NCBI RefSeq assembly: GCF_000219625.1
Contig: NC_018211.1
Span: 496,001 to 560,000 of the forward strand
Origin: Zymoseptoria tritici IPO323
Lineage: Eukaryota; Ascomycota; Dothideomycetes; Mycosphaerellales; Mycosphaerellaceae
Direction: 5' to 3'
DNA length: 64,000 nt
Made by a program: the position numbers and the translations under genes. The notes below the pieces were generated by a model. It had not been told where the DNA came from and did not search any database. It saw nothing but the letters and a program-made list of their open reading frames with translations. This document shows, piece after piece, positions 27,955 to 57,769 of the stretch (position 1 is the first letter of the stretch; each line of letters begins with the position of its first letter).

Positions 27955-30138
27955 ATGTTTTACCTCTCGATTGGACTACTGCTCACGGTGATCTCATTGT
28001 CCTGGTACGGGCGGCGTCTCAGAAAGAGTCCAGCATGCCAGAAGAAGAACGATCGTCCGGCACAAAACAAAATGGACAGTCCTGATGGAAGACCTCGCCG
28101 AGAGGCACCCAGCTCGTCGACAGCCGTGCTCTTCGACCCAGAGCAAGTTCGGAAGCTATATCACTGCCTGCACAACTTGGAGACAAACGCTGGAACCCTC
28201 TCCGTTGCGAAGGATGTCTTAACTGGATCATTGAAAGAAGCGGATCATTTCAACCAGACGACTTCTGTGACCGATGGCATACACATCATTGGGTCATACA
28301 CTCCAAATGCTCTCCGGATCTGGCTCGACAATGGAGACGCCATGGTCATGAAGGAGTTTGAGAAGTACTCGACTCGCAGAGCCAATGGAGGATCAAGAGA
28401 GCTACTCCCTGGACGAGAGGAAGCGACTGCATGGCTGCGAGCGCAGGCTCCTTTGCGATTCGTGGACGGTGCATGGCTGGGTCATATCAGCCGAGTACAA
28501 ATGCCTTGGGCACACGCCGGAGTCGTCCGCCAGTTGTGGCAAATTCTGTCGGAGGAACTCGGCGACGGGGATATCGAGAAGCATCACACTCGCCTCTTTG
28601 CTCAACTGCTGCGATCTTTTGCTCCAGATGTACCGGACGCTCCTTCCCCGGACTTCCTGGATCGACGCCACGGAGCGACCAACGAGAAGATATGGAGATC
28701 TGCTGTCCTGCAGTCGATTGTATCGCTGTTTCAAGAGAGCTTCCTGCCTGAGATACTCGGATTCAACCTGAACTTTGAGCGTATTTCTTTTGAGATGCTG
28801 AAAGCTATGATTGAGCTTCGAGAGCTCAAATTAGATCCGACATACTTCATGCTGCACGTGTGCATCGACAACGCGGCATCGGGTCACACTGCAGTTGCCT
28901 TGGATGCGGTTTGCTCTTATCTGGCAGGCATTAGAGAGCAACATGGTTACGATGCTGAGCAACAGGCTTGGAGAAAGATCCAAGCGGGCTATGCTCTTTC
29001 CGACGGAAGATGGCACGAGAAGCCTCCCCTGGATGTCAAGGCATTTGAGCACCTTCAGCAATCCGTTGCAGCCATATTTGAATCGAAAGCCAAAGCAGGA
29101 TCAAGTGCCCACCTCATGTGTAAAGGTAGCATTAAAGGTCAGCGCATCACAGACTGGCTCGATTTGAATCATATTGGTAGCTCAGCCTGGTGGGCTCGTT
29201 TGGTACAGTCTTTGGGTGAATCTCGAGCGTGGATTGTTCCTGGAGAGAGCGAACGAAGCCGGTTTGTCAAGGAACTATCATGGGGTGGTCGCATGTTCGG
29301 GGCGTTCACCGAAGCCGAATGTCATGAGGTGCGCCGTTGGGTCGCCATACTACCATTGAGATCATCACGGCCTGGTACTGTACGCTCGGTGCCCATTCCG
29401 GACGTCGACGTTGCCACTCATCATGTGGCGCCATACATGCGAATTGACCATGCCTTGCATACTCTTGAAACCCACCGAGGACGCATACTGGCAACGCCAG
29501 CTGATCCCTCCGCAACGGAGTGGATCTACGACATAGACGTCAGTGGATTGGAGCATTGCCAGTTCCTGGGAGCGATCTGGTTCTCGCATTTCTGCCTCCT
29601 TGAAAAGTTTATCGCTTTGCCGTCGAGATGCGGCGATCCATTGGGTGCTCTGGTCCTTCGCGTGCTGCGAGCCCAAGATGGCATCGGCCTCAATGACCAT
29701 CATACGGACCAGCGATACACTGCAACGCCCACAGGTCCAGACGAAGGGCTCATTTTCAACTTGGGCCATCAAATCTTGCACTTTCATGGTCTCCAGCCCG
29801 CAGCTTCACTTTCGGATCAGATCTCTGGACAACCTTGTGCAGACTTGGCCGAGACCATGTTCTCGGTCGCCGCGGCACCCGTTCAGTGTAGAGGCATGTT
29901 ACTTGGGATGGCATCAGCATTTATCAGTCTGCACTCTGCCATTGCTGCCTCTTCGATACTGGATGCACACTCCCGCTCGAAGCTATACCGAGTCGTAGAC
30001 TTAGAAGAGACCGAGCTTCTATCGTGTTTACTTATGCTTGCCGATGACCAGCGGCATGAATTCGCTAAAGGCTTCGAATTCATCAGGATTCAGCTCAGCA
30101 CGCTGTTCAAAGTCGAAGCCGGACACGAAAGTCACTGA
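27955..30138 (+). CDS. Haem-oxygenase-like iron-containing redox enzyme, membrane-anchored, 727 aa
   Basis: Resembles the haem-oxygenase-like diiron oxidase family (Pfam-style Haem_oxygenas_2), whose members use a non-haem diiron site to desaturate, N-oxygenate or fragment amino-acid-like substrates in natural-product pathways. Residues 2-18 are a hydrophobic anchor followed by RRLRK, suggesting an ER-bound cytosolic-facing enzyme. The oxidase region covers about 180-325. Candidate iron ligands are E201 and H211 (ELGDGD...HH), E266 in LPEILGF, and H301, D305, H311 in HVCIDNAASGH. FVDGAWLGH (169-177) is another family block. Residues about 380-727 are a large C-terminal half I cannot assign. 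Single exon. An 18-bp tandem repeat starts 5 bp after the stop. Confidence 0.75.
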   Translation: MFYLSIGLLLTVISLSWYGRRLRKSPACQKKNDRPAQNKMDSPDGRPRREAPSSSTAVLFDPEQVRKLYHCLHNLETNAGTLSVAKDVLTGSLKEADHFNQTTSVTDGIHIIGSYTPNALRIWLDNGDAMVMKEFEKYSTRRANGGSRELLPGREEATAWLRAQAPLRFVDGAWLGHISRVQMPWAHAGVVRQLWQILSEELGDGDIEKHHTRLFAQLLRSFAPDVPDAPSPDFLDRRHGATNEKIWRSAVLQSIVSLFQESFLPEILGFNLNFERISFEMLKAMIELRELKLDPTYFMLHVCIDNAASGHTAVALDAVCSYLAGIREQHGYDAEQQAWRKIQAGYALSDGRWHEKPPLDVKAFEHLQQSVAAIFESKAKAGSSAHLMCKGSIKGQRITDWLDLNHIGSSAWWARLVQSLGESRAWIVPGESERSRFVKELSWGGRMFGAFTEAECHEVRRWVAILPLRSSRPGTVRSVPIPDVDVATHHVAPYMRIDHALHTLETHRGRILATPADPSATEWIYDIDVSGLEHCQFLGAIWFSHFCLLEKFIALPSRCGDPLGALVLRVLRAQDGIGLNDHHTDQRYTATPTGPDEGLIFNLGHQILHFHGLQPAASLSDQISGQPCADLAETMFSVAAAPVQCRGMLLGMASAFISLHSAIAASSILDAHSRSKLYRVVDLEETELLSCLLMLADDQRHEFAKGFEFIRIQLSTLFKVEAGHESH

Positions 30139-30595: not shown

Positions 30596-31267
30596 ATGCG
30601 CACAGAATGTGCTTCCCTCTGGCCCCGCCAAGATTACGAGACGATCACTGGCGCCCATGTATGTCTCACACCTCTAGAAGAACGCCACGCTGATGGACTC
30701 TTTCAACACGTGGGCGGAACAGACAACGCTCATCTCTGGACGTACATGGCCGACGGACCATACGAAACGGTTGAAGAGTTCCGTATCCACATCAAGAGAT
30801 GCGCGAGTTCTGCGGATGCCTCCTTCTGGGCTGTGGTGTCCCGAACGTCAGGCCAGATACTCGGCTATGCCTCATTCATGCGAGTCGATCAAGCCAACGC
30901 TGTGGTTGAGATTGGAAACATCATGTACGCACCTGTCTTTCAGAGGACGACTGGAGCTACCGAGGCGTGGTTTCTGTTGGCAGATCGAGCATTTACGTCC
31001 GGATTCAGACGACTGGAGTGGAAATGCAATACGCTCAACAAGCCATCAATGCGAGCAGCTTCGAGACTTGGACACACGTTTGAAGGAATCTTTCGTCAGC
31101 ACATGATAGTGAAAGGCAGCAACCGGAACACGGCGTGGTACTCTATCATCGATTGTGAATGGACCAAGGTGAAGGAGGCTCTCGAGGCGTGGATGCAGGG
31201 TGACAATTTCGACGCATCTGGGAAGCAGAAGATGGACTTGGTGGCGATTCGAAACCTATTGCGGTGA
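30596..31267 (+). CDS. GNAT N-acetyltransferase, RimJ/RimL type, 223 aa
   Basis: Acetyl-CoA-dependent N-acetyltransferase. The entire protein is one GNAT domain: N-terminal LTPLEERHADGLFQHV, the central strand/turn FWAVVSRTSGQILGYASFMRVD, IGNIMYAPVFQRTTGATEAW, then the C-terminal signature FRRLEWKCNTLNKPSMRAASRLGHTFEGIFRQHM. That last block is characteristic of RimJ/RimL-like acyltransferases, many of which act on small amines or amino acids, including detoxification of toxic amino acid analogues. In this neighbourhood it may acetylate a pathway intermediate or product as self-protection (inference). Single exon; convergent with the POT transporter gene. Confidence 0.88.
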   Translation: MRTECASLWPRQDYETITGAHVCLTPLEERHADGLFQHVGGTDNAHLWTYMADGPYETVEEFRIHIKRCASSADASFWAVVSRTSGQILGYASFMRVDQANAVVEIGNIMYAPVFQRTTGATEAWFLLADRAFTSGFRRLEWKCNTLNKPSMRAASRLGHTFEGIFRQHMIVKGSNRNTAWYSIIDCEWTKVKEALEAWMQGDNFDASGKQKMDLVAIRNLLR

Positions 31268-31524: not shown

Positions 31525-33555
31525 TCATTGTGTGCGACCTTCTTGTTGACGTTGTTCCAAGAGAAGTGTATCGACGTCTTTGTCCTCTTTGTCGCGATGG
31601 CCTACGACCGCCCAGAGTATCGGAGACATGACTCCCAGGCAAACAGCCAGGCTAGCATATAGCCAGATCATATTCGGATCGTGAGAAACTGGACCAAGAG
31701 CTATACCGATGGCACTCCCAACGCCAGCGCTCAGTAGTCGCAGTGACTGCATCACGGTGCGCATATCTCTAGGTGCCATACTGTATGTGTACTCGCTGAG
31801 CGTGACGAAGCCGAAGATCTCCGCCAAAGCGAGCAACGCATACAGTGGAGTTTGCATCCACACGGTGATGTCGTTCGGCAAAGGCTGCTGACCAGGTCTT
31901 GAGGCCGCGGGACACTTGACAGGTGCATCGTAGCAAGGGCCCGAGTCGTAGATCATCTTTTGCACACCAGCAGCATAGGCAAAAGTCGCCGCCATCATCG
32001 TGAAAGCTGCGGCTATGCGCATCACAGGTCCGAATGGTATGCGCAATCTGGCCAGTCCAGGGTACAGGAATTTCTGGATCAACGGTCCAAGGAGTACGCA
32101 GGCGATTGGGTTCAAGACCTGGATGCCGTCGTTCGGAAAACCTCCAAGCTTCATCTGTCCCGCCTGCGAGACCAGATTGCTGTTCATTTGATTCATGCCG
32201 GTTTGGAATAGGATGAACCAAAGCCTGTTCACTCTTCATCAGCCTGACGATTGTTTGTGCTTCATAGAGCAAAAGACTGGGCTTCATACATAATTTCGCA
32301 TGCACGTAGTCCACTTCGAATTTCCAGGACGAACTCGTTAGTCCATGGGACGATTCGTCCATGCATCTGCAGCTGATGCTCGGGTTGTACAGCACGGAGG
32401 CTGAACCCACCTCGGATAGCGCATCCCAGGAGCTTGCCAGCCTTGAGCAAGACGCCACCTTGAGCTGGCAGCTTCTCTGCGCGAGTCAGACAAGTATTCG
32501 AACGTTCTTCGGGTAACATACCGAATTCTTTGCTGGATGTAAGAAGGCAAACAAGACCCACCCAGGATGAGCAAAATGCAAGAAGGTTCGCTGACCAGAA
32601 ACCGTACACTTTCTCGAGGTAGGTTGCCGCAATGAGGGAGACTGCTGCAACGTTTGTGATCCTATTAATTACCGTCAGCTGCCATTCTAAAAAAGATGAC
32701 AGATATGAATCACCAATAATAGACGTTGTATATGTACTGCAAGGTCAAAGTTCTGTCAATGATCACTCGCTCCTTGGATGGTAGCGTCTTGACTTGTGGT
32801 GGTTTGACCGGGTATTGGTCTCCTGGTCACAAGCGTATCATGGTCAGCGCATCTCCGCTTGACTAAACTGACCATGCCATACCAATGAAAGGCGTGAATG
32901 TCGCTTTCGTTCCTCCGACGCCCATACCGATGAACAGCAGACAGATCGCGAGTCCCGCAACTCCAGCATCGTGATCAAAGAGGGAAGGCAGGGAAGTCAC
33001 AAACTGCACTAATGTGCCGCACAAGTACAAACTAGTTGAAGTCAGCATGTGGACCCACCCTCAAGTCTCCAAAACGCCAGTCTCTGGGTACCTCAGACTG
33101 ATGCAGAGCACTCTGAACCTCCCCAGCCGTGCATCCGATAGGACTGCAAAGAAAATCGGAGTCAAAAATGAAAACATGTAATAGGCATTGAAGATCGTTG
33201 TTGCCCGTGACTGTCCCAGCCCAAGCGCCCCGGGAGTGGCACTGTCGCCCGGTGCATTTTGCATGTAATTCTCTGAGATGTGTCAAGACGATTCATTTGA
33301 CCCGTTCTCGAAGAACTCACGCCATGGTGTGGAGACGACGTAGAAAGTAAAGCGTTCTGCACCGCCTGCCGCCAAAGCAATCCAGACTTTGCGTGGTAGC
33401 CGATCAGCCACATGCCTCAGAGTCTGAAGTTCTTCGCTGGTGGCATCCCTGAGGTCATCCTCGTGGAGTTCGGACTTCTCGGGAGGGGCTTGAGCTTGTT
33501 GCAAGACCGGTGTCTCAAAGACAAAAGCATCTTTCGGCTGGTCGGTGGGTGTCAT
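31525..33555 (-). CDS. POT/PTR2-family proton-coupled peptide transporter, 566 aa, seven exons
   Basis: Exons in reading order: 33321-33555, 33092-33272, 32883-33031, 32714-32822, 32522-32661, 32290-32476 and 31525-32224. The six introns are 45-65 bp and all junctions are in phase. The product imports or exports di/tripeptides or related amides with protons through about 12 membrane helices. POT landmarks are AERFTFYVVSTPWQNYMQN (helix 1, first splice), FSFLTPIFFAVLSDARLGRF (helix 2 and signature loop), GMGVGGTKATFTPFIGDQY, YIYNVYYWITNVAAVSL and SQAGQMKLGGFPND. The first 75 residues are hydrophilic. It shares an 890-bp divergent promoter with the dioxygenase gene, so it is likely co-regulated with the cluster. 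The ATG at 33555 is preferred; the longer upstream frame starts with GTG. Confidence 0.9.
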
Positions 33556-34446
33556 TTCGAAAGGGCTTGCCTGTTGCGCCTTGATCGCTGTATCGGTGTA
33601 TTGATCCTGTATGTAAGGGAAGATCGTGTTTTTCAACGAGCAGGTCAAGAGAATCGAGTCCGACAGAACAATCACAGGTCTCCAGTGAAGCGTGGCAAAG
33701 CACAAGTCAGTGCAAATGCATGAAGGAAATGGATTGCCACCAGTAGAACGAAGCTCATAGTCTGAGTCACCAAGATGCACAGCACGAGAGCGTCTGGACT
33801 ACTCCACCTCATGCTATCCAGGGCCTTTTACGTGCTGGGATAGAACTATTGCGTCAGCTTCCCGTGCTAACAACCCAGGGACATCGTTCGCTTGCAATAT
33901 CAGGTCAATCTTCGGATGAAGAGTAGTACGAGTCGGGTGGACAGCACAGTGTGCCGCGCACGAGCTCCCAATCTGGGCCGAGCGAACACCCTACCAGAGG
34001 TCTTGAGTGGTCGAAGTGAAGGCTCAGATGTCCAAAGTGAGGTTATTCTCCCTTGGTGCCTGAGGCGCAAAGTGCTTAGTCATGAAGCTCTCCCGTCTTC
34101 CGAGGTGCACTTCACCTTCTTACCTCTGAGAAAACCAATCAGTCACGCATTGGGTCATGCATCCGGAAACCTGAATGGACTGCGAGTGGCAGGCCATGTG
34201 ATATCTGGTCCCAGGTCTCTGCAGGTGCATCCGGGAGGGTAGCCCCCCCGGTTGTGTATGTCGCAATCCTGGTAAGCGTCAGTAGGTGTGTATCCATTCC
34301 TACATCTTCAGCCAACTACAATATCAGTTCTACGTCTTCGACCGACTGCGGTATCATTACTGCGCCTTCAAACGAAGCCTTTCCTGCAGTCTCAGCCAAC
34401 TCGATTGAGAAAGTAAGATATCCAGAAACAGATCCTCAGTATCGCC
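33556..34446. promoter_or_regulatory. Bidirectional promoter, POT transporter / Fe(II) dioxygenase
   Basis: About 890 bp between divergent start codons. Near 34300-34400 are three loose copies of a TCTTC/GCC-AACT-type unit; whether they are regulator sites is unknown. Small open frames here have no recognisable product. Confidence 0.4.
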
Positions 34447-35402
34447 ATGGCAGATGATCACAAGAGCACTAAGTCGACTGTGATCGACCTTCCTACTGTC
34501 AGCTATCGCGACTTGATGCTTGGATCTCAGGATGCGGCCGTAGGGCTCTTGAAGGCAGCCAGCATAGATGGGTTCTTCCAGTTGGACTTGAGAGATACTC
34601 CTGCGCAGCAGACCGTTCTGGACGCTCTACCCGTGGTCTACAAGGCTGGAAAACAGTACTTCGCACAGTCTCCGGCTGTGAAAGAGCAAGACCGACGACA
34701 GGCGAACAATGGTACCGACAGAGGGTATGTTTTCACAGCTTTGAGGCATTACCACGCTTGAATCAACGAGAGCATAGATTGACAGGCCACTAGCTTTACG
34801 TCTTGTCCGTCTGACGAGGACTTGGAGGTAATGCGCGGGATCGCTGATTTCACTCTTCAATTTACTGACGATCCGTTATCTAGCTATCGATTGACGAATA
34901 TCGAGCTGGAAACCCCCCTTTCCCCGCGGTGCTACAGGCCAAGCGCGAAACAATTGGCAACTTCATGGAGTCTCTAGATCAAGCCTGCCGGGTGATGCTG
35001 GCATCTTTATCTGCATCGTTGGGCCTGCAGGAAGGCGAGTCCTTGGACCAATATCACCACAAGGCGGATACCAGCGAGTCCGGATTGAAGTTCGTCAGTG
35101 AACCGACGCTGGCTCGCATCGCTGATGTAGCCGACAACACGCACACCGATGGCGGCACCTTCACCATCATCTTCTGTAAAAGACTGGGCCTCCAAACGTA
35201 CCTTCCACGCACAAAGGAATGGGCCTTCGTCCCTCCTAAGGATGGCTGTTGCGTTGTCAATGTCGCCGACGCTCTCAGCCGGTTCTCACACGGTGTGCTG
35301 CACTCCCCGAGGCACCGCGTTACGCAAGTCGAAGACGGAGCGGGCGAGCGCCTCTACTTGTCTCACTTCCTCCGTCCAAGTCACAAGTATGCCGGTCCAT
35401 GA
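34447..35402 (+). CDS. Non-haem Fe(II) dioxygenase, IPNS/2OG-oxygenase fold, 276 aa, three exons
   Basis: Exons are 34447-34724, 34794-34827 (34 nt) and 34884-35402; the first intron uses the TAG at 34791-34793, giving DRG-FTSCPSDEDLE-LSIDEY. The N-terminal DIOX_N-type half begins VIDLPTVSYRDL and has DGFFQLDL. The C-terminal jelly roll holds the facial triad H191-x-D193 (NTHTDGGT) and H248 (SPRHRV). The usual 2-oxoglutarate anchor RxS is replaced by R260-L-Y262 (GERLYLSHFLRP), so co-substrate handling may differ. At 276 residues it is shorter than typical members (about 310-350), mainly between the two halves. Likely a hydroxylation, desaturation or cyclisation step of the local pathway (inference). 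Confidence 0.82.
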
Positions 35403-35689: not shown

Positions 35690-37688
35690 CTAGAAGATCT
35701 CGTACTTGAAACTCCGTCTCACCTTTTCCGCCAGCCTCAAACATTCTTCTCTACTCTTCTTGCTCACCACGGAGAAGTAAGCCAAGTACGTGAAAAGTGC
35801 GGCCTCTGGACCGTATAGCTGATCTCCCGCTTTCTTGTGAGTCTTGTAGTCGACGACGGCCATTCGCAGATCAGCATGATTTTCCAACATTTCTTTGCCC
35901 GCATCCGGTGTCTTCATCACGCCCGCTCGGTCCTGTGGGATGAGGATCACTTCCATCCACCACTGTGCTCCCGTGGAAAAGGGGATGCTCAATGCACGAC
36001 AACGCTCGAGGTCGTTCAGGCCCGCGAGGATGTGGCATGCATAGTAGTCCACACCATAGGTCAGAAGTGTAGCGCTGCTCACGAAATATCCTCCCGGCCG
36101 AGCATTGATCTCGTGTAGGTAGAATGAAGGTTCCTTGTTGCCATGGCTTCTGGAGTTCGTACGCAGATCGACGAGACCTCCACATGTATCGTATGCTCTG
36201 GACGAATACCGAATGCGACCCTCGCAGTGGAAAACACCGGTGGTGAAGCCCTGTCTCAGAAGACTCCGGTGGACTGCGTCTTTGGCAATCTGAATCTCGG
36301 TCGGAGGAAGCGCAGTTGGGAGAACCATGGAAGTTTCCACAAAAGATGCATCTTCAGTATTGTCGCCAGGCTTTGGAAAATCATCTGCCATTTCGAAGAA
36401 GACCGCCTCTCCATTGATGAGAACGAAATTCACATCTATCTCGGGACCATCAATATATGGCTCGACCAGTGCATCGGTACACAACTGAGGTCCAGGAAAT
36501 TTCCGGTCCATGACTTGCTCGACCGCTTGCACCAGTTGCTCCTGGTTGTGTGCCTTTGAGACGCATTCGCTGCCCCAACCCATACACGGCTTGACCATGA
36601 CGGGATATGCTATTGGCAGCCTCGATGTAGACGCCAGTCGAGCATACAGCTCTTCAATGCTGCAAAGCTTGAACGACTCTCCATCATCTGGCTCCAAGGC
36701 TCGCGTCTTGGACTTGTCTCCGGCGATTTCGAAGGCTTCTTCCGGCGTCGTATGGAATCCCAGAATCTTGCGGGCCTGCGCGGCCGGGACCAGACCAGGA
36801 TTGTAGCAGGTTACCACGTTGTCGATGGGCTTGTCGTAGGCGCGTACTGCTGCTACGATGCGGTCCACGAGTCCGTCATCACCATCGATACTAATCGGGA
36901 TGAATGCTTCTCGAAGATGATTCCAACGCTCGTCATCTTTCTGAGCCCAGCTGCCTTCATAGTCAAGGATGACTACTTTGACACCAAGCGATCTGGCAGC
37001 TTCCCAAATGCGTCTGCCACTGTCAAAGGTCTCATATCCTTTGATCCAGGCGATCCGCTTTTCCGGGATGGGATCAGGAGAGATCCATGGGAATGCCAGT
37101 CTATCAGTCAGTGCAACTTCCAGATCGACCAGACCTTGCATGTCGTCGACTTGTACAGCTCCAACAGCGTGAGCCAGGAGCTCATGTAAGTTCAGGGCGG
37201 TTGCGCCGTCTTGGACCTCACAGTTTGAGCATGCAATCTCTTGTCTTGGCTCAACGAAGCCCTCAACTCTCAAAGTATCATAGCCTTCCAGCCGTCGCTG
37301 CAGAAAGTCCGATCTGCTGCAATATCCAGCCTTTGCTGGGAGAATGAACTTCATGAAAATCTGTGATCGTGCCAGCAGTGATGGCCGGACAAGCTCAGCT
37401 ATGAAAATGGATGCGTGATTGTCCGACACGACTGAGAGCACAAACGGCTGAGCCTTGCTGGATAGGTTTGTATCGTCGCCCGTAGCCTCGTCGGAGCTAC
37501 ACAAGGACGAGAAATTGATCGCTAGATCTAGCGTTCGATGTTGGAGCATAGCAGCCTCGGGTCTCGTATTGTTGAGTTTCCAGGATCCATCGAAGTACGC
37601 TTTTGACAATCAGCTTCCAGAAATGCGATCCAAAAGAAGACTACCCACCATCTTTGTTTCCAATGGGGAGCTTGAACCGGCTAGTCAT
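35690..37688 (-). CDS. ATP-grasp ligase (carnosine synthase / amino-acid ligase-like), 649 aa
   Basis: ATP-dependent carboxylate-amine ligase that would form an amide through an acyl-phosphate. Exon 1 is 37649-37688 (MTSRFKLPIGNKD plus one base), the 49-bp intron is 37600-37648, and exon 2 is 35690-37599. An N-terminal domain (about 1-250) precedes the ATP-grasp fold. Markers are DKSKTR (about 308-313), the ATP-binding lysine K350 in PVMVKP, the flexible loop CMGWGSECV (352-360), VEPYIDGPEIDV (392-403), E473 in FHCEGRI, and the magnesium-binding pair E510/N512 in HEINARPGG. Single-chain layout and EINARPGG resemble CARNS1-like and bacterial L-amino-acid ligases. It lies downstream of, and codirectional with, the TyrRS-like gene. 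Substrates unknown. Confidence 0.88.
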
Positions 37689-38092: not shown

Positions 38093-39499
38093 TCATCGCC
38101 GATCTCGAGGGCCGGACCAGTCTTCAGGGTAGCCAATCCAATCAGACGAGACCCAGTCCTCGCTTTGCTCGTAGTCTGACCGAATTTCTTCCAGCAGCAT
38201 GTTGAGGGCCTTTGCGACTGCTTCCTTCAGGTTCTCTGGCTGGACTGCGCCTGCCACGTAGTCTCGCTCCAAGTATTGGTAGGCAGAGAAGTTGCGATAG
38301 TACGCTTGGGGATTCGAGGCTTCACTTGTTTTGATGCTGAACAATGTCCCAGCTGGAGCACCATCGGCAACAAAAGCCCGCCGATGGTAGGAATGCCGCG
38401 GCCGAACACCCTCAAATGCCCTTCCAGAGTTGTACGCCCAGATCTCGCTTATGGGGAAGATGATGTGCTCTGCGATCGGGAGCACGCCGTTGTCCTGGGT
38501 AGACCTCGCCGGGCAGGAGGCGCTTGCAATTTTGGCCCGGACCTCCGCCGGATTGTCGAGAAACATGATCTTGGTATGTGCTGGATGCGATGAAGACATC
38601 TTGCCTCCTGTAAGGCTGGGGAGCAAGGTGTTCATAAAATGCGCCCGCGGATTAAATCCAAGCTGTGGTAGGCATCGCTGTCCAAGGTCGAAGGTCCCTC
38701 GCTGCTCGTTGGGTGAGCTTACAGTCCAGTGATATGTAAGGCAATCCACACCAATTCAAAGATACATACCTGATCGGTTCCTCCGAGCTCTACGTCTGCT
38801 CCAAGATGCTCCAGCGCGAGCTCTTGTACCAGCGGAGTGAGCATCGGACTCAGCATCGTGGCCGCGCCTACTTCTTGACCGGTACTCCTCAGATCCTGCT
38901 GTGAGCACAGCGTGCACATTTTCCAGAAGTCGAGCAAGTACTTTGGGTTTCCCTGGTACGAGGACTGGTCGACCATTGTTACCTTCGACATCGGGACGCC
39001 AATCGCGTTCAGGACGGCGGTGACAAGTGATCGGTAATAGATCGTCCGGTGGCGGACTTGATCCCAAGGATACTTGTAGTTGACAAGGAAGGCGTACGAG
39101 TCGACGACTTCGAGCACAACCTGGCAAAGGTTACTCAGACCACAATACTGCTCAACTCAGATCGAGCGGACTCACCTCGCCGCCAGCACGCACAAAGTCG
39201 GCGAATTTGATCAAGGGAATGAAGTAACCAATGTGAGCTGCGGAATTGAATCAGCAGGTATAAGCTACGCAGCAGTTGCGTGAACTGTACGTTTGCCTGT
39301 GGGAGCAGTGGCTAAACTGGTCAGCGGCCTGCTTCGCCAGACATGCGGTTGGACCACTTGACTTACACCAGAGAAAGCTGGGTGACTTGCCCTCGGAGAG
39401 AAGCTGCCTCAGTCTTTCGCATGATGCGCCATTGAGTTCCGCGAGGCGCCGAGTGATAAGAGCGTATTGCTCTGCAGTGTTCATTGTGGGGGCAGTCAT
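38093..39499 (-). CDS. Divergent tyrosyl-tRNA synthetase paralog, 391 aa, five exons
   Basis: Exons: 39367-39499, 39291-39311 (a 21-nt microexon), 39176-39237, 38770-39120 and 38093-38701; introns 53-68 bp, all in phase. It is a class I synthetase of the eukaryotic cytosolic TyrRS type: N-terminal helix NTAEQYALITRRLAEL, HIGH-type motif P52-H-I-G-Y56, connective region, GGTDQR (185-190), then K223-MSSS and the anticodon-binding helices to residue 391. Compared by eye with human TyrRS, the residues recognising tyrosine differ: Y39 is L43, Y166 is T167 and D173 is A174, while Q170 is kept (Q171). Both ligands of the phenolic OH are thus gone. The ATP-binding motifs are intact. Probably a cluster-specific activating or resistance enzyme, not the housekeeping TyrRS. 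Confidence 0.87.
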
Positions 39500-40022: not shown

Positions 40023-42656
40023 TTATTGATGTCGTGGCGCCTGGTAATTGGATTCGGACGGAATCGAGTGACCTATGCACCAAGCCGTGCAAAAACGCCC
40101 CGCCTGGCCACATGGGCAGTCTCCTGAGTCCTCGCAGTCCAATACACCACAGCGACATGCCATAGACCTGATGTGTTGAACGTGATGCTCCAACTGGTCA
40201 AGAAATTCTGCTTGGGACGATTGCCCACCACGGAAATGATCCGGCTGCTCATTCACCAGGGCCACGAGTTCTTCAACGATTCGAGGGAGATGGCCGGACA
40301 TGACGTCCTGGCTCTGCGTGCTTGGGAGATTCTCGAGCTCCCAGCTGATGCACTGCAGTGTCTGAATGACGCTCAGTTTGTCCCAAAATAGCCCACCTTC
40401 CAACACAGTGGTCGTCGAAGAATAAATCGCCTGCACGATTTTCAACCCTGGTGGAAGCAGAAGCACATCGTCTTGTTGAAGGAACACCAACCTTTGCCTA
40501 CCGTCGGGCATCCAGTTATTTCCGTCCGTCAATGTCGACCACTCCATGGTCATTTCATCCTCTGGAACAAACATCCAAATAGCAGTACCATCGAGGACTC
40601 GGAGCCAAGTTCCGCTTACGCTATTAAGGCATGTATCCGAACATGCGCCCCCGAGACTACAAACATTGAAGCTTACGCAGTCGTCTATGCTCGCCGGTCC
40701 CGAGCCATTACTTCTGCGATCCGCCGGAAGCACGGATCCTTGCACTCTTTCGATGAGGCAGTCGAGCAGACGAAACCGAGGCAGCATAGCAAGAAGTGGT
40801 CGCTGGCACTTGGTAATGTTTCGAAATCTGAGAATGGCTGCACCGTTGTAGGATTGTCCGGCCGCATCGTCCCAATGTTTTCCGGTTCGCAAACCTTCGG
40901 CGATCTTTTCAAGGCTGACCGGTGCTGATTGTACCTTGTCGAACTCTTTTGCATGGAAGGTCGGCAGTCTGGGAGATCTATCCTGTAAATGTAGGGCCAA
41001 CGTCTCGGCAGTGTGTATGTTGGAATCAGAAAATCGCTCCTTTATCACAAGTGGTTTGCGAAAAATGCGGCCGTCTTGGGCGGCTGTGATGAATTCTTCC
41101 GAAGTAAAATGCAACACATCAGCTTCGTATTCTGATCGAGCTCGACCGTAAGATAGCTCACTTCCTAGTTGAGTGAAAATGCTAGCATGGCGAGCGTCAG
41201 ACTTCAGCCAAGAAGAAAATTGTACGGGCGATTCAGCCAGCACACCCGAAAGTTCCTGTCGTCCATCGGTAATATCGCAGAGCGTCGTTGCCGTGGTTTC
41301 AGGATGGTGCAGAAGGTCCTCCATCATGGCCATGTCCTGGTCCTCAGTTTGAGAAAACAGAGACTGGGTCTGCATGGGGTGCAGAGGTTGGGTAGGAGTA
41401 TCATCGGAATTGGACCGGTCGTGCACAATTTCCGCGTTGCCCATGGCCACGTCGCTGAAATCTTCCTGTCCTGTATCAATGCAGTCCGTCCGTGGGTTTC
41501 TTAAATGCCTCGCCATGTCTTGGCTGCAGTTTGGAGAGATGGTTCCAGGCTCTCGCTCAATCCCGGCTCCATTGTCAAGCAGCGCGGAGTATTTAGTGGA
41601 GGTCGGCAAAGCTGAGCTTGCAGGACTGCTATTGGTAGGCTCGGCGGAGCCGGTGTTGTCGGTGGGCGAGTGACTGTCGTGTGGCGAAGCCGAATTAGAT
41701 GGGGAGTCCATATCGCACCCAAAGAACGACTCGTGAAAGTGATCGACGGTCGGGAACGGCGTATCATCGGCGGTAGGACCGCCGGGAGTGCTTGTACTTG
41801 AGCAACCGGGCATGGCGTCGCTGGACGAGCGGCGGCTTATCGAGCTGCTTTGCTGCACTCGATCAAGCATGCCGCTCAAGTCCTGGTCTGTCCGGGTGAT
41901 CGGAGTGCAGTCGTCGGGAAGAGAAGCATGTTGGCGGACCGCCGATTTGGAGGTGTTTGCTCGCGCGGTCAGAAGACCATATCGATCTGTCTGTAACAAG
42001 TACATGTGATAATGGTCTGGCCTGATTTCGTTCAAAAGGGTGCCGTTGTCGTCCACGGTGACACTGCCGTCCATGTTCGTCACCCATTGGTGAAGAGCAT
42101 TGTCGTCCGGGTTTGTTGCTGCTAGTAGTTGAGCGCTGAGATCGCGCAGCTGCAGAGTAGCTTGATCAAGAGTCCTCAGCCGACCCTTGGTAATGGCCTC
42201 GCAGTGCCGCTGTAGGAGAACGCAGTTCAGGCGCGGACACAAGTCCTCCTTGAAGCGAGGATAACGTGTGGCACAGACGCGAATTGCGCTCATCTGCGTC
42301 TGACCGACTTTGTCCCAGCCATAGTGTAAGACGACCTCAGGGGACCAGAGAGTCGCCACGAACGCGAGGGATCGCAGTCGGTTCGTTTCATTGCTTCGTT
42401 TGCCTTTCTTCTCCTCGATTTCCGTGGCGACAGAAAGCAGTTCCCGCCATTTGACGTTGCACTCGAGGCCCGCTGGGAAGGCAAGCTTGACCACGGAGCA
42501 CAGAGTAACGATGCGAGTATCAACCTGGTCGCGCTGTGATAGTAGACTATCGCGAAGCTTGACGTAGGCTGAGGGTGGTGCTTGCTGAGCCCAAGCGGTG
42601 TGTAATTTCTGGACGAATGCTTGGGTGGCCTTGTCCAGGGTTCCCTGCGTGGTCAT
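40023..42656 (-). CDS. JmjC-like protein with degenerate active site and Cys-rich tail, 877 aa
   Basis: Large single-exon protein from the ATG at 42656 (MTTQGTLDKATQ); the frame continues 22 codons upstream without an ATG. Residues about 1-200 are helical, and about 230-480 are Ser/Thr/Asp/Pro-rich and disordered. Residues about 560-800 look like a JmjC/cupin fold: SGTWLRVLDGTAIWMFVPED, then DDVLLLPPGLKIVQAIYS and LEGGLFWDKL. The expected HxD appears as C-S-D, and the distal His after PPG is missing, so Fe(II) binding looks lost. The C-terminal 50 residues form a Cys cluster (CRCGVLDC...GDCPCGQAGRFC) likely to bind zinc. Possibly a chromatin or regulatory protein; function unknown. Confidence 0.7.
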   Translation of the reverse strand: MTTQGTLDKATQAFVQKLHTAWAQQAPPSAYVKLRDSLLSQRDQVDTRIVTLCSVVKLAFPAGLECNVKWRELLSVATEIEEKKGKRSNETNRLRSLAFVATLWSPEVVLHYGWDKVGQTQMSAIRVCATRYPRFKEDLCPRLNCVLLQRHCEAITKGRLRTLDQATLQLRDLSAQLLAATNPDDNALHQWVTNMDGSVTVDDNGTLLNEIRPDHYHMYLLQTDRYGLLTARANTSKSAVRQHASLPDDCTPITRTDQDLSGMLDRVQQSSSISRRSSSDAMPGCSSTSTPGGPTADDTPFPTVDHFHESFFGCDMDSPSNSASPHDSHSPTDNTGSAEPTNSSPASSALPTSTKYSALLDNGAGIEREPGTISPNCSQDMARHLRNPRTDCIDTGQEDFSDVAMGNAEIVHDRSNSDDTPTQPLHPMQTQSLFSQTEDQDMAMMEDLLHHPETTATTLCDITDGRQELSGVLAESPVQFSSWLKSDARHASIFTQLGSELSYGRARSEYEADVLHFTSEEFITAAQDGRIFRKPLVIKERFSDSNIHTAETLALHLQDRSPRLPTFHAKEFDKVQSAPVSLEKIAEGLRTGKHWDDAAGQSYNGAAILRFRNITKCQRPLLAMLPRFRLLDCLIERVQGSVLPADRRSNGSGPASIDDCVSFNVCSLGGACSDTCLNSVSGTWLRVLDGTAIWMFVPEDEMTMEWSTLTDGNNWMPDGRQRLVFLQQDDVLLLPPGLKIVQAIYSSTTTVLEGGLFWDKLSVIQTLQCISWELENLPSTQSQDVMSGHLPRIVEELVALVNEQPDHFRGGQSSQAEFLDQLEHHVQHIRSMACRCGVLDCEDSGDCPCGQAGRFCTAWCIGHSIPSESNYQAPRHQ

Positions 42657-44379
42657 GATTGAATCGGCCGGCTGGCGGATTGAACGATTCCGATTCCGAT
42701 GGGAATTCCGAGTGGTCGGCAATCAGCAAGAGGTGACACCACGATCTTGGCCGTCATTGGATGGGGAAGAACTGTGAGAGATGTTATGCTCTCAACAGAG
42801 CTTTTCTGTTGAGCGACCTACACGCATATTGCGCTGTCTATGTGGACTCCCTGCAAACCTTACATACGGAAGGGTTCGTCGCTTCGGACTCAGGATGAAC
42901 GTCAGGTCTGCAGGAGGTGTCGATGCCAAGTGTCTGATCGAATAGACCGACCAAGGGCCAATTTGCAAGGGACAAAGATCGGCTCATCTACGAGGCACTT
43001 CACTGCTGCAGCGTAAAAGGGACGGGCGGCTTGTACAGCGTGTGAGCGCATCGGAGTGGTCGCCGTTTTGCAGGCTCAGGGGGATATTTCCAGGGCCGGA
43101 TTGGTCCAATCCCCGGTCATCAGGCCATTAACCTTGCGACAGGGTTTGAACGGCGACCACTCCGATGCGCCAACCTGCTGTAGACCCCAAGGTGACTTGC
43201 TCTGTCATAATCGGAGACTGCATCCTGCGGCGGGCGAGGGCGACAAAGGATCAATCTGGAGGTAGCAGAGGGTACAAGTAATTCAGATGCTCCATCGTGG
43301 TCTTCCAAGGGGATCATACGAGCTGCCGGCATCCTTACTAGTATCTTCGCGACTGCAGGCTGCAGCAGAGGATACATATGTGAGGTTGAAGAAAAATGCA
43401 TGGATATCAAGGTGTCATACGTCGGCTGGAATCAAGGCCAGATGACGGCTGAACACAAGCTCGTGGATAGTCCTTTGTGTTGATTTTGATGCCAGCTGAA
43501 CTCGAGTTCTCGAACGACCAGATTCGTGTCAGAATAGTCAGCTAGATTTCCTGAATGACAGCTCAGAGAGAAGAGCTCGGCATTCCAAAATAGGCCATGC
43601 GGATGCTATGACGGCGTCAGTTCAACTGGACCTCAAAGCAACCTCGCAACTCCGCAAAGTCCAGATGGATGTGGAGATGCTATTGTTAGCGCTCCAACGA
43701 CAACGACAACACGGACCACCTGTAAACCGCTTCACATGTGGTCCGTGCTGTCAGCAATGGGGGCGAAGGTTCACTCTTACCGACGGAGCAGGGTCAGCAT
43801 CCTACACCTTCAGTGCAATAGCTTGCTCAGAGGCCGGTAGAACCACTTTGACCTCTTTCCAGACAAGATGTAGCCGCCTCAGCAACTACACAGGTATCGT
43901 AGCTTTCCCCTACTGTGAGCACCACTACTCGAACGCGATATGCAGTCGAATCAAAGCCATCACTACGCCCAGAACGAGAGGAGGACAGTGAAGTCGTCGA
44001 GGACCGAACGGTACCGAGGTTTGGTCTGCATGGTGTGCTGCAAGCATTGGGAGCTCAGAACCCAACGAATATATATCTAGCTTCGTTCGGCGACACAGAA
44101 TTCCGGAACGAAGCAGACTGATCCTGGCTCAACGGCCCAGATCGGCATGAGTGCCTGTCCGGCGGAACGAATGTACCATTCGAGGGACCGTAACGACATA
44201 ACATGAGGCTCGTTGCCTGCAGTTGCAACTCGCAAGCGGCAAGAGACGGCGATGGAGACCTGCAGACCAAAGCGTGGCTACTACACGCAGCATCACGGCG
44301 CTTCGTGTCGATGCATGATTGGTAGTATCAGGAGTCCGATGACCAATCTCCCGGTTGAAGCAAACTTGATCTCTTCACA
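42657..44379. other. Gene-poor intergenic region, about 1.7 kb
   Basis: Short open frames on both strands (for example 43608-43991) show no recognisable domain. The clear structural feature is the perfect inverted repeat at 43046-43170. A smaller interrupted palindrome with arms CTTCGTTC/GAACGAAG lies near 44081-44113. Otherwise nothing is supported. Confidence 0.45.
43046..43170. repeat. Perfect 22-bp inverted repeat (stem-loop, about 81-nt loop)
   Basis: Left arm 43046-43067 and right arm 43149-43170 are exact reverse complements over 22 bp. The loop contains a second palindrome, GGATTGGTCCAATCC. Not inside a recognisable gene and not flanked by an evident transposase. Confidence 0.9.
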
Positions 44380-44782: not shown

Positions 44783-46189
44783 TCAATAGACTTCTGTTAC
44801 TCTCTCGATGTCGTAAGGAATTGATTCTGCGACATTCGTGATCGCCAGTAGATTTCCCCTGTACCGACTGTACCATTCAGCTGCATTCAGATGCAGCGTT
44901 CGTCGCCACACGGGCTCCTTGATGTGCTCGAAAGGTCCGTCGATAAGATCGATCACGCCGTTGCGCATGGCTTGTAGAGCCATTGTGAACATGCGCTGCA
45001 GCGAATCGATGTACTCTCCCTTGACATATCGGCCCAAGACGGTGCGAAATGCATCGATCGCAATAGTAGTTCTGTATGTGTCCCTAGCCAAGCCGCCGAT
45101 TTTGATCTGTTGGTACGCAAGCCAGTTCAAGAACTCGCAGTGGACCAAGGCCGATTTGAAACCGTCGGTCTGACAGACAAACAAGCTCATCATGATCAAA
45201 GCATCAGGGTAGTATGGGTCTCGTGTGATGTTGCCGGATGTACAAGCGTTCAAAAGCTTTCTGTAGACCACTCCTCGAAGTTCCAGGACTTCGACCGAAG
45301 GACGATCGAACGTTCGTGGCGGACTGACGAGCCACCGATCATCTGCCCAGCAGTGGTTCGGACCCCATGGCTTTAGTTTTACAGATAGCCATGCGCTCAA
45401 TAAGACTGGATCAGCAATGGCAGGAAGGTAGTCCGGCGTCGGCATATATCCTGCTCGCCTCCGTCTTGAGAAGAGTGCTGAACCGCCTTGAGCAATGAGC
45501 TCGCCAGGGAACATGTCGTCGAGTATTACCGTATAGTGCTGTTGTTCGGTTATAAATGGTCCGCGGCATGTATTCTTGCCCACCGATCTATGCTCGGTCG
45601 ATATCTCGTTGTTCCCGAAGGAACCAATGGAGACCGATAGGTCGGGACGAATGTGCTCGGTCGCTTGTGATCCGTTCGCTGGCAGAAGCATTGAGTGTGT
45701 AGGAGCTACCGACATTGGAATGTAGCTCAGTGACATCGGAAGCTCCGGGATCATGCTCTGATAGGACATGCTGTTCGCTTCCATGACCAGAGTCTGTGGA
45801 TTACTGGTGGACATAGGCATGTAGGCACACTTGGGTGCCGATTGCTCCAGCTCGAAAATCGAAGCGAAACTCTGAGTAGGAATGGCGTTGTCGACTTTAC
45901 TGCCTCCTTTTCTACAAGCATCGCTGGCCCAATGAGCAGGTAGCGATCGCATTCGCACGCTCTTGTTACATCTGATGCAGGACGTCTTCTGGTCGGTAGT
46001 GTGCTGTGTCCGTATATGGCGATCCAGGATATCCTTCCACTTACAGCGTGCCTTGCAGCCAACAAACGGGCAAGGAATTTTCTCGATCCGATGCACCGCC
46101 CTCTCATGCCGAATTAACATTTTCTTGAGAGGAAACCCGTGATGGCAAATCGAGCACTCAGATGGGCCGGCGGTGAGAGGCGCAGCCAT
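44783..46189 (-). CDS. C2H2 zinc-finger regulator, 468 aa
   Basis: Candidate transcription factor at the cluster edge. N-terminal zinc fingers: ECSICHHGFPLKKMLIRHERAVH (C-x2-C...H-x4-H), then CPFVGC...RHIRTQH (C-x4-C...H-x4-H). A third Cys pair, CIRCNKS, is followed by H and C (AHWASDAC), possibly an incomplete finger. Residues about 100-215 are Ser/Met/Pro-rich. The C-terminal half (about 215-468) resembles the fungal-specific regulatory regions that follow such fingers: helical, with DPYYPDALIMMSLFVCQ and conserved Trp residues. Start ATG at 46189, single exon. It is the last intact gene before the RIP-damaged block and may be the pathway regulator (inference from position only). Confidence 0.82.
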   Translation of the reverse strand: MAAPLTAGPSECSICHHGFPLKKMLIRHERAVHRIEKIPCPFVGCKARCKWKDILDRHIRTQHTTDQKTSCIRCNKSVRMRSLPAHWASDACRKGGSKVDNAIPTQSFASIFELEQSAPKCAYMPMSTSNPQTLVMEANSMSYQSMIPELPMSLSYIPMSVAPTHSMLLPANGSQATEHIRPDLSVSIGSFGNNEISTEHRSVGKNTCRGPFITEQQHYTVILDDMFPGELIAQGGSALFSRRRRAGYMPTPDYLPAIADPVLLSAWLSVKLKPWGPNHCWADDRWLVSPPRTFDRPSVEVLELRGVVYRKLLNACTSGNITRDPYYPDALIMMSLFVCQTDGFKSALVHCEFLNWLAYQQIKIGGLARDTYRTTIAIDAFRTVLGRYVKGEYIDSLQRMFTMALQAMRNGVIDLIDGPFEHIKEPVWRRTLHLNAAEWYSRYRGNLLAITNVAESIPYDIERVTEVY

Positions 46190-46515
46190 AGTGACTGTCT
46201 AGTTGGGTGAGGTCAAATCAGCGTGGTCTCCTCCGCCGCTCGTGCTGATCCGGATCAGAGAGTAGATACTGTCACAGCTCGATGTGACCTTGACAGAGCG
46301 TCCCGTTCAAAGCGTTGACAGCGCCCGTGATGAGATCTGTGAAGCGCTGCGTGAGGGGAAAGTCGATCAGGCCTGGTAGTAGATGAGCCAAGAGGAGGGA
46401 ATTGGTAATAGGCACGTCAGCTGATCATACATGGGGATTGGCGGAGCTCATATGTAGCACTCGCGGGGACCCTGACCGTGCGCGAGGCAATATTAGAGCA
46501 TGTTTATCGCTGGTG
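46190..46515. other. Boundary between gene space and RIP-mutated repeats
   Basis: Normal composition continues to about 46,490, then switches within tens of bases to TpA-rich, CpA/TpG-poor sequence (TAATATATATAG onward). Holds the promoter of the C2H2 gene. Confidence 0.6.
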
Positions 46516-47278
46516 GACCTAATATATATAGTTTAGCGCAATACTAGTAAACTTCCGCAACACCGGCCCTTGTTACCGGTAAATCACACTATTCCGTTTA
46601 TAGCATGCCGCTATAGTTAGTTAGTTACGCCTTAGACTACTATAGTCGAAGGACTAACTAGTCGACTATCGCTAGATGAAGTATAGTATCGTTATACTTA
46701 GCGTATTAGCGTATCGTTCGCGTTAGAGTCGTAATTATAGTCGTTCGGTCGCACCTCTATATATAATACTATAGTTAGTAATACTACTAACCCTATAACA
46801 ATCTAGTACTTTATAAATAGTGGCGTAAGTAGTATATAGTAGTAGGGTAGTAAGATCTTATCGTCGCCGCCGCCGTAGATAACCGCTATAGCTACCGTCG
46901 GTATACCTATAGGCCTATATAGAGCCTACTAATCTATTACCGAGTAGAATAACTAGTACTAGCTTCTACCTTAATATCGCGACGATATAGATATAGCTAT
47001 AGTATAGTAGTAGTCTTATAGCTATAGTAATAGTATACGAGTACTACTACGTTAGAAGGAAGCTAACGGACTTATAACACCGACCGCTCCGCCTATTACC
47101 GTTAGCTTAGACCCTCTAGTACTATTAAGTCTATTACTAGCTAGTACCGGTAGTATTACCGGTAGTGTTATAAGGTTTCTAGCGGACTACGTCTAAGGAT
47201 ATGCCCGAGGTACGTTATATACTAAGCTACTTACTCTAAAAATTATAATGTTTATTACGTACCCGGTTATAAGAAGAT

Positions 47279-47372
47279 AAAAAGAGATGTATTATATTAA
47301 CTATATTAAAGACACCGGAGTGTTAACATCGTAGATATAATATATATTAAACTAAGAAAGGGAGTCGAATAG
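47279..47372 (-). repeat. Copy of a dispersed short repeat, possibly SINE-like
   Basis: About 90 bp matching 57,847-57,938 in the same orientation, with shared blocks TTAACTATATTAAAGACACC and AAACTAAGAAAGGG. Read on the minus strand it begins near a pol III B-box-like TTCGACTCC and ends in CTCTTTTT, reminiscent of a tRNA-derived SINE. Classification uncertain. Confidence 0.4.
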
Positions 47373-50300: not shown

Positions 50301-50415
50301 CTAGGCGTAAGGGTAGCCCGGTTACCTCTATTATATTGAAGTTGTACGGGTTGTTATACGGCTCTACGTAATCGGCCTCTTCTATAAGGCTAAAGTTTAG
50401 TTTACGAACTCGTTA

Positions 50416-50505
50416 GCTAAGAGGAAGAAGGCTAAGAAGAAGAAGGCTAAGAGGAAGAAGGCTAAGAGGAAGAAGGCTAAGAGGAAGAAGGCTAAGAGGA
50501 AGTAG
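50416..50505 (+). repeat. 15-bp tandem repeat, six units
   Basis: GCTAAGAGGAAGAAG repeated from 50416 (unit 2 has one mismatch, the last unit is altered). In one frame it encodes A-K-R-K-K, a basic tract of a decayed element protein. CpA-free, so unaffected by RIP. Confidence 0.9.
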
Positions 50506-52200
50506 TTCGCCGTATTCTACCTCTTTAAAGACGTCGTAATTCGGCCTAGGAGCTCGTTAGCTAATACGGTAGAGGTATAGAGGTTTAAGAACTCGGTTCG
50601 TCGGACGTAGACGCTTAAGAGGGAGAATAGGTAGTCGACGAATCTTAGGACGATAGCGGCGGAGATAAAGCCTAAATTTATATTAGACAAGAAGAGATGT
50701 TTCTATAGGATATATACTATACTTAGACGCTATATAGTAGGGAGCCTACTATATATAGTATTAGCGGGAGTTAGTAGTAGGCCGAGGACAGATCGGGTCC
50801 GGAGAACGTTAGTACGTAATTAGATAGATAGCCTACTACTAGATAGCGTAGTCGGTAGAGTATTCGAAGGTATAGGTAAGGCTATTAAGCGTTTTTGTAT
50901 AATATTCGTAGCTCGGAGATCTTACGAAGTAGCCTTAACCTTTCGGCGTTAATATCTAGTTTCTTTACTCTCTTAACTACTCTAGGTAAACGTATCTTCT
51001 ACATCGAGTAGATCTTACGTAATATCGAAATCGTACTCGTCGTAACGCTTACGCTTAAGGTTTAGGTTCCTATATATATAGTAGGTTATAAGTAACGAAG
51101 AAGCGAAATAGGATAAAGTCGTAGTAGGCGGAAGGAAATAATAGTATAGCTTTACTACGAGGCAACGGGTATATATCCGTATATTCTCTATTACGCTATA
51201 TATAGGGATATCGAGAATAGAATAGACGAACGCGAGTATAGCGGAAAAAGAGGACGCGAGTTTACGCTATACTAGGGTTCGCGAGAATACTATAAACAAA
51301 AGAGCGCGTACTAGTAGACTAATAGAAAGTAAGCTTTAATAGACCCCTCTTTTTGTTAGGAAAACTAATAAAAAGAGACCTTTATTAGATCCCTACCGGT
51401 AGAAGAAGACGGCTATAGTCTTTAATAGAACTAGCCCTTCGTACCTCGGGTAATAAGCTCTAATAGCTTGTTCGTAAATCTATCGGAAATAAGTAGATTA
51501 TCGTCTAACTACGTAATAGAGTCTATAGACCTATCGGCTTATAAAGAGGTAGAGCTCTAGTTTATTAATAAGGATAAGGTAAGGGTACGGACGGTCGGTA
51601 AGACTAAGACCGGTAAAGAGAAGATATAAAATAAGCGTACCGTCTTTATAGACGAGCGCCGGCTAGTAGTTATAAAGGCGTTAATAAGCTACTATAACAT
51701 AGCTATTAAGGAGTAGTCGTTGCCCTACTTCTTTACTATAGTAACGACCTATATTAGCCGGACGACTAACCTTAAGCCGAGCTATCTATAGCGGACAGTT
51801 ATAGGGGGTACTAGCTCGACTAACACTATTATAAGAGGGTAGATTCCGTAATATAAGGAGGTTATAAAGTAGAAGGTTGTTAGCACCGGCCGGCTATAGT
51901 CTAAGCTATAATTAGGCGTACGAGGAGTAGATCCGGATTATAGTTAAGAGGGACGAATACTATACTAATAAGAAGAAGACTACTAAGGAGTTAGCGGCTA
52001 AGGAGAAACGTAAGGAGGCTATTAAGGCCCGTAGTATAAAGCGGCCTTTATCTCGCGCTATAGATAAGGGTAATAGTAGTAGTAGTAAGGAGCTACCGTC
52101 GATAGATAATCGTACCTCTAAAGCAAAGCGCCGTAATATATAACGCGCGGAGCTCGCGGTAGACCGGATTCGTAGTAGCACTAGTAAGACTATCATCGAC

Positions 52201-52600
52201 ATCCGCACTTCCATTACACACCTAATATTGACCTGATTATCACCAAACACGCACTATTCGAAAGCCCTTATTAAGGCCGTTCTAACGAACCCGCATTCAC
52301 CACGCTGCCCTTAAAACCTACGCCGCTACTGGAGTTTAAAGATTTACCTTGTTGCCCCCTTTGGGGTGCAAATTTGAACTCCGGGATTTGGCCCCCACCT
52401 CCGAAACCTTATTCCGACCTTACCTCCCCTACACTCGAAATATTCCCTGTTTAGGGCATTACACAAGGAAGGTTTACAACCTGTACTATAACACTTTAAC
52501 ACACTACAATACAACTAATACGCCGCCGATTCGGACGCCGTATAGCCCGTTTAAAAGCCCTCGACGAGAGCTTTTATTCTAGCTATTAAACGCCTAATTT
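52201..52600. other. Less RIP-mutated island between repeat blocks
   Basis: About 400 bp in which CpA is again common (for example around 52,230-52,320 and 52,480-52,520), unlike both flanks. No coding signature. It could be the 5' leader of the LINE or a separate insertion. Confidence 0.4.
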
Positions 52601-53665: not shown

Positions 53666-53702
<37 letters not shown>

Positions 53703-57736: not shown

Positions 57737-57769
57737 AACAAACAAACAAAAACAAACAAACAAACAATA
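57737..57769 (+). repeat. LINE 3' tail, CAAA-type repeats
   Basis: ACAAACAAACAAAAACAAAC-type tail ending the LINE, followed by AATAAGACGA. The same tail type ends the two short elements at about 60,415 (plus) and 62,300 (minus). Confidence 0.85.

Follow-up and report, generated by a model that had tools for sequence, protein, structure and literature searches.

Ordinary cytosolic tyrosyl-tRNA synthetases (TyrRSs; Pfam family PF00579) are represented by structures of the human (1n3l, 7rou) and yeast (2dlc) enzymes. In the Methanocaldococcus jannaschii TyrRS, Tyr32 and Asp158 bind the tyrosine hydroxyl, and two engineered variants of that enzyme are changed at Tyr32, Leu65, His70, and Asp158 (PMC9499402). 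Further points of comparison are the bacterial hydrazine synthetases, in which a class-I MetRS-like domain forms the adenylate of an amino acid for reaction with a small-molecule nucleophile (PMC11705231); the comparative-genomics predictions of MetRS-paralog and haem-oxygenase/cupin peptide systems (PMC2922099); and fungal E-64 biosynthesis, with amide-forming ATP-grasp enzymes beside a 2-oxoglutarate (2OG) oxygenase (PMC12568646). Here we describe a TyrRS-like gene (minus strand, 38093..39499) in a 64,000-base window of the Zymoseptoria tritici IPO323 genome (C8:496001-560000). Its product belongs to a fungal clade with a rebuilt tyrosine pocket and probably serves a small-molecule pathway. 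The whole genome (39.7 Mb, 21 contigs) was used for genome-wide family searches.

The TyrRS-like protein shares with ordinary cytosolic TyrRS the fold (in a homolog model), the HIGH-like and KMSSS motifs, Q170, and Q188 (human numbering), but differs in the replacement of Tyr39, Gly41, Leu72, His77, Tyr166, and Asp173, the loss of K147 and R279, and a 3-residue deletion. The sites changed in the engineered M. jannaschii variants coincide with sites changed here; unlike those variants, the present protein is natural, clade-wide, and oxygenase-linked, and it is also changed at the equivalent of Tyr151 (human Tyr166), a site absent from the available part of the account of the variants (PMC9499402). 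The hydrazine synthetases offer a precedent by analogy for the mechanism that we propose. They are MetRS-derived and bacterial with a cupin partner, whereas the present system is TyrRS-derived and fungal with a 2OG oxygenase as neighbour; in place of a MetRS-like adenylating domain we find a member of the PF00579 TyrRS/TrpRS family with human TyrRS as its best PDB match, and no cupin domain occurs among the eight window open reading frames (ORFs) scanned with Pfam. In the systems of PMC2922099, too, oxygenases and a transporter accompany a synthetase paralog or an ATP-grasp ligase, but those systems are bacterial, and the part of that account available to us has no TyrRS paralog of the present kind. 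E-64 type clusters likewise pair an Fe(II)/2OG oxygenase with an ATP-grasp ligase without a non-ribosomal peptide synthetase (NRPS); they need, however, an ANL-family amide synthetase, of which there is none among the eight scanned ORFs, and E-64 Cp1B shows no Pfam domains, whereas the ATP-grasp protein here has Pfam matches. Membership of the E-64 pathway or of the hydrazine synthetases was considered and is not claimed.

A literature search, mostly of titles and abstract openings and with few subscription journals, met no TyrRS paralog within a fungal biosynthetic cluster. When the secondary-metabolite clusters of Z. tritici were surveyed in 2017, the key enzymes listed were NRPS, NRPS-like, polyketide synthase (PKS), and hybrid enzymes, and the terms ATP-grasp and tRNA synthetase are absent from the main text of that survey (PMC5561558). 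If our reading is correct, the clade would be the natural counterpart to TyrRS variants made in the laboratory for non-canonical amino acids, and the substrates of its naturally evolved pockets could be put to direct use in genetic-code expansion. It would also mark an uncharted NRPS-free route in fungi for activating unusual amino acids, with the TyrRS-like and 2OG oxygenase pair as a sequence handle for clusters without NRPS or PKS genes. How an enzyme of translation can part with its amino acid, perhaps also with its tRNA, and turn metabolic would become a testable question.

A rebuilt tyrosine pocket shared by a fungal clade

The TyrRS-like gene runs from an ATG at 39499 to a stop at 38093 in five exons (391 amino acids) with no internal stops, and its four introns of 55, 53, 55, and 68 bases are all GT-AG. 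Exon 1 (39367..39499) ends in SFLW, placing L43 at human Y39, and is followed by a GT-AG intron; exon 2 (39291..39311) is a 21-base micro-exon encoding TAPTGK, part of the ATP site; exon 3 (39176..39237) carries the HIGH-like motif HIGYF; exon 4 (38770..39120) holds E76, DSYA, T167, Q171, and A174; and exon 5 (38093..38701) encodes KMSSS and the C-terminal domain up to the stop. A tblastn search with two relatives as queries spans the region (E about 1e-111 to 1e-116). The prediction for one clade relative, P0014, lacks the TAPTGK stretch, which suggests a common gene structure with the same micro-exon overlooked by predictors. No annotated Z. tritici protein for the gene is found among the best 120 of 257 homologs, while two of its neighbours, encoding an ATP-grasp protein (P0121) and an oxygenase (P0202), do have annotated Z. 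tritici proteins; thus, within that set of homologs, the gene seems to be missing or badly modelled in those proteomes. The 21-base exon is a likely cause.

The product is an archaeal/eukaryotic-type TyrRS relative. It matches PF00579 (E=4.8e-36), shows the class-Ic catalytic fold, HIGH-like and KMSSS motifs included, and has as its closest solved structures human cytosolic TyrRS (7rou and 1n3l, E about 7e-66) and yeast TyrRS (2dlc). It is 37% identical to human TyrRS and likewise to the housekeeping copy in the Z. tritici genome. Against the NCBIfam tyrosine–tRNA ligase models, which are used for prokaryotes, it falls below the cut-offs (165.4 of 220 bits for NF006330; 84.1 of 113.8 for TIGR00234), and the housekeeping TyrRS piece scores 233.9 and 164.2, respectively.

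That housekeeping copy came from a PF00579 search of the genome, which gave eight pieces. Two (C8:1490475 and C1:1679669) exceed the tryptophan–tRNA ligase cut-off TIGR00233. Three lie at C1:2917564-2918650, of which one was scored, matching tyrS only (E=5.6e-25) and below the cut-off as a fragment; we take this gene for a bacterial-type mitochondrial TyrRS. The last two belong to the TyrRS-like gene itself. The remaining piece, at C6:1038500, is the cytosolic TyrRS: it exceeds both tyrosine–tRNA ligase cut-offs and has Y39, Y166, Q170, and D173. The sequence-only reading had called for a second TyrRS with the conserved Tyr and Asp, and this copy supplies it, so the TyrRS-like gene is not the lone cytosolic TyrRS. 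In passing, the C6 copy has Ala at the position of M. jannaschii Asp286, a G34 contact, unlike 81 of the 88 ordinary sequences in the tree described below.

A computed alignment to human TyrRS reproduces what the sequence-only reading had placed by eye, namely L43, T167, and A174 at human Y39, Y166, and D173, and DSYA in place of DLHA. The full set of pocket changes is Y39 to L43, G41 to S45, L72 to E76, A74 to V78, H77 to Y81, Y166 to T167, and D173 to A174. Human Y39, D173, and L72 correspond to M. jannaschii Tyr32, Asp158, and Leu65; the Tyr and Asp that bind the tyrosine hydroxyl are therefore not kept, and Leu and Ala stand in their places, as had been proposed. Tyr166 and Gln170, which hold the alpha-amino group of tyrosine, have different fates, Gln being kept as Q171. 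Also unchanged are W40 (W44), D187, Q188, HIGY, and KMSSS, which bears out the earlier claim of intact HIGH-like and KMSSS motifs; K190 is replaced by G191.

To place the protein, we built a tree of 123 tips, comprising 119 homologs (the best 120 of 257, with P0059 left out of trees), the TyrRS-like protein, the housekeeping copy, and the human and M. jannaschii TyrRSs. The TyrRS-like protein falls within a clade of 34 (FastTree support 1.0; IQ-TREE ultrafast bootstrap (UFBoot) 97) on a long stem of 0.38. A source name is available for 29 of the 34, all of them fungi, from genera that include Purpureocillium, Arthroderma, Hirsutella, Ophiocordyceps, Aspergillus, Paecilomyces, Endocarpon, Lasallia, Macrophomina, Sclerotinia, Fonsecaea, Cladophialophora, and Rhypophila. 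Y39, Y166, and D173 are all present in 88/88 ordinary (non-clade, non-M. jannaschii) sequences; four clade members are gapped at position 39, and among the 30 readable at all three sites, 29 have none of these residues. In 101 columns, at least 95% of the ordinary sequences agree (K and R pooled); conservation within the clade is still at least 90% for 49 of these columns, and for 22 it drops below 35%. The lost columns include 5 of 7 pocket sites, as compared to 22/101 overall (p 0.005), a modest enrichment by count alone for sites that were in part hand-picked. The rebuilt pocket is confirmed as real and conserved, beyond chance.

The clade likely holds at least two specificity classes, judging from two pocket positions. 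A subclade of 15 that includes this gene has Thr (14) or Ser (1) at human 166, with Glu or Asp at human 72 in 11 of its 13 readable members, as compared to the other 19, in which 166 is Cys (18) or Thr (1) and 72 is never acidic.

The sister of the clade is a group of 16 ordinary TyrRS sequences (joint clade UFBoot 100) and not the housekeeping copy of the same genome. The genera of these 16 are presumably mushroom-forming basidiomycetes, and the named clade members presumably ascomycetes. Their adjacency may reflect ancient gene transfer or, the sequences having been picked by similarity, a long-branch effect. A profile search of genome contigs with the family alignment returned 42 prokaryotic loci, archaeal except for two Dojkabacteria records; Tyr39, Tyr166, and Asp173 are kept in all 34 loci with an extractable frame, so that no prokaryotic clade member was seen among these.

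tRNA-side positions and the linked oxygenase

Conserved basic positions are also altered in the clade. K147 (M. jannaschii R132) is kept in 1/34 members, being Asp or Glu in 26/34 and Ser in the Z. tritici protein; K190 is kept in none of the 34 (Gly in 32); R279 is kept in 1/32; and residues 153–155 are deleted in all 34. For M. jannaschii R132, R174, K175, and R257, acceptor-stem roles are at most putative. At the equivalent of M. jannaschii Asp286, Asp is found in 9/34 members and Asn in the Z. tritici protein. The M. jannaschii residue makes two hydrogen bonds to G34 and is described as conserved in archaea and eukaryotes (PMC10135938), and eukaryotic tyrosine identity depends on A73, C1-G72, G34, and U35 (PMC9976931). 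There is no tRNA gene in the 64-kb window. Taken at the level of residues, it is plausible that the interaction with tRNA-Tyr has been weakened or lost, and there is a faint indication that the TyrRS-like protein could act independently of tRNA.

The gene for an IPNS-like Fe(II)/2OG oxygenase (PF03171; plus strand, 34447..35402) lies 2.7 kb from the TyrRS-like gene. Its exons (34447-34724, 34794-34827, and 34884-35402) encode 276 amino acids, identical to the annotated P0202 of Z. tritici ST99CH_3D1 and with the HxD...H family motif kept. A search with this protein gave nine proteins, one being that of Z. tritici itself. In Fonsecaea erecta, the oxygenase P0204 (AYL99_03413) and clade member P0033 (AYL99_03415) are two locus tags apart, each on a 4,102,344-base contig, and in Rhypophila decipiens, oxygenase P0206 and clade member P0099 are both on an 806,513-base contig; in each case, sharing of the contig is judged from equal lengths and species. 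The ENA-sourced prediction P0059 is a merged protein: over 192 residues, its first part has 88% identity to the Purpureocillium homolog P0001, and its tail is an oxygenase, 56–62% identical over 58–66 residues to the five closest oxygenases. Cladophialophora immunda has both oxygenase and TyrRS-like protein, seemingly in different strains. Penicillium paradoxum and Drechslerella stenobrocha have the oxygenase, with no TyrRS-like protein among the best 120 of 257 homologs.

Between the oxygenase and TyrRS-like genes lies an ATP-grasp ligase gene of carboxylate-amine ligase type (minus strand, 35690..37688; PF18130 and PF13535), whose open frame is 100% identical to P0121 of Z. tritici ST99CH_3D7, from which its first exon was placed. 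On the other side of the oxygenase is a multi-exon POT/PTR2 peptide transporter gene (minus strand, 31525..33780; partial model, PF00854 on the 31525-32232 piece). In Talaromyces stipitatus, a single prediction (P0155) matches the POT gene (31528-33450) and the ATP-grasp gene in reverse order. The oxygenase/TyrRS-like and POT/ATP-grasp pairs are interleaved in Z. tritici, which argues for joint action there.

Proposed function and alternatives

On balance, we consider it probable that this TyrRS relative adenylates a non-tyrosine amino acid for a small-molecule pathway, with the neighbouring 2OG oxygenase as partner. The replaced residues make a substrate other than tyrosine a well-supported proposal, a role in specialised metabolism is moderately supported, and we infer that the protein is catalytically active. 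ATP and an amino acid would bind in a pocket that selects its substrate without the tyrosine-hydroxyl contact, the HIGH and KMSSS motifs would form the aminoacyl adenylate, and the acceptor of the acyl group would then be not tRNA-Tyr but a small nucleophile, either an amine or a hydroxyl. The oxygenase may modify the amino acid beforehand or the product afterwards; here, the ATP-grasp enzyme may add a second amide bond and the POT transporter may move the product. The sequence-only reading had favoured a non-tyrosine aromatic amino acid, with para-substituted phenylalanines in mind. Its non-tyrosine part remains the best inference from the replaced residues, but its aromatic part is no more than a possibility: with Glu or Asp at human 72 in 11/13 readable members of the subclade, a group that is cationic or donates hydrogen bonds is the better fit. 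The clade of 34, the recurrent 2OG oxygenase neighbour, and the lost basic residues lie beyond what that reading of one sequence could see. A narrower form of our proposal, fungal TyrRS-derived, tRNA-independent amino-acid ligases for natural products, able to adenylate and transfer the acyl group on their own, with an IPNS-like oxygenase and at least two pocket classes, of which the Glu/Asp72 plus Thr166 class selects a cationic side chain, is put forward tentatively, as possible rather than probable.

Several observations weigh against the favoured proposal. R189 (M. jannaschii R174) is retained in 27/34 clade members, and P0032, the deepest branch, retains Y39 (though neither of the other two residues). 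The anticodon losses are not diagnostic, because the housekeeping TyrRS of the same genome also lacks the equivalents of Asp286 (Ala there) and Phe261; an Asp286-based argument, initially strong, is weakened by this Ala and by the mimivirus TyrRS, which lacks the Phe261 loop. The change of K190 to Gly was dropped as a clade marker because Gly also occurs in 2 of 34 prokaryotic TyrRSs (the others having 21 Lys, 9 His, 1 Met, and 1 Gln). As to the neighbourhood, only four genomes show the linkage to the oxygenase, in Rhypophila it amounts to a shared 806-kb contig, and the ATP-grasp homologs come mostly from species outside the TyrRS-like homolog list.

The retained R189 is also consistent with an enzyme that still charges a tRNA, using a non-tyrosine amino acid to feed a tRNA-dependent ligase or transferase in natural-product synthesis. 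The C-terminal domain is kept and, in the homolog model, has the fold seen in TyrRS, fungal tRNA-dependent pathways exist (PMC2922099, PMC12568646), and a candidate acceptor is at hand in the nearby GNAT acetyltransferase gene (plus strand, 30596..31267; PF13302, E=3.7e-14), a possible cluster member. We nevertheless regard this as unlikely given the acidic residues at 147 in 26/34 members, the loss of R279, the deletion of 153–155, and a window free of tRNA genes, the conservation of GNAT with the TyrRS-like gene being only putative. A self-resistance copy, charging tRNA-Tyr while evading a TyrRS inhibitor made by the cluster, would account for an extra TyrRS-type gene in the company of a transporter and of genes with a likely biosynthetic function, and resistant synthetase copies are a known strategy. 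Such a copy must still use tyrosine and tRNA-Tyr, however, and the residues that recognize tyrosine are replaced in 29/30 readable clade members, with basic residues conserved in ordinary TyrRS lost as well; the inhibitor-immune form that the sequence-only reading had offered as its second option is accordingly disfavoured, and we think it improbable.

So extensive a remodelling of the pocket and of otherwise conserved basic residues might instead indicate a non-catalytic or regulatory TyrRS relative. HIGH-like, KMSSS, and Q188 are kept in nearly all readable members across a long divergence, which counts against a pseudoenzyme, for which such motifs would not be needed, and makes a role of this kind very improbable. 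We give hardly any credence to a functionless, decaying duplicate, which could explain why no annotated Z. tritici protein for the gene appears among the best 120 of 257 homologs: all five exons are open with canonical splice sites throughout, and the motifs are kept alongside up to 61% identity to relatives from other genera.

Flanking genes

Upstream of the GNAT gene in window coordinates lies a gene for a haem-oxygenase-like oxidase (plus strand, 27955..30138; PF14518, E=2.5e-26), a possible cluster member; a search of the genome gave no other PF14518 match. Elsewhere, pathways are known in which oxidases of this haem-oxygenase-like type act on amino acids (PMC13185094). The protein is 727 amino acids long, and PF14518 spans only residues 159–346; even with the threshold relaxed to E 5, Pfam gives nothing for its C-terminal 381 residues. 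At 22028-26127, two frames resemble by eye a hybrid histidine kinase, with a kinase part followed by a receiver domain.

On the other side of the TyrRS-like gene, an 899-amino-acid open frame at 40023-42722 has no Pfam matches; by eye, its C-terminal part resembles a JmjC-type domain with a Cys-rich tail after it. A 468-amino-acid frame at 44783-46189, in which a C2H2 zinc finger scores below threshold, could encode a regulator next to the cluster. Over 46000-64000, GC content drops from about 53% to 40–47%, and a reverse-transcriptase-like frame is seen by eye at 56253-56744; this part of the window looks like a transposon-rich block at the cluster border.
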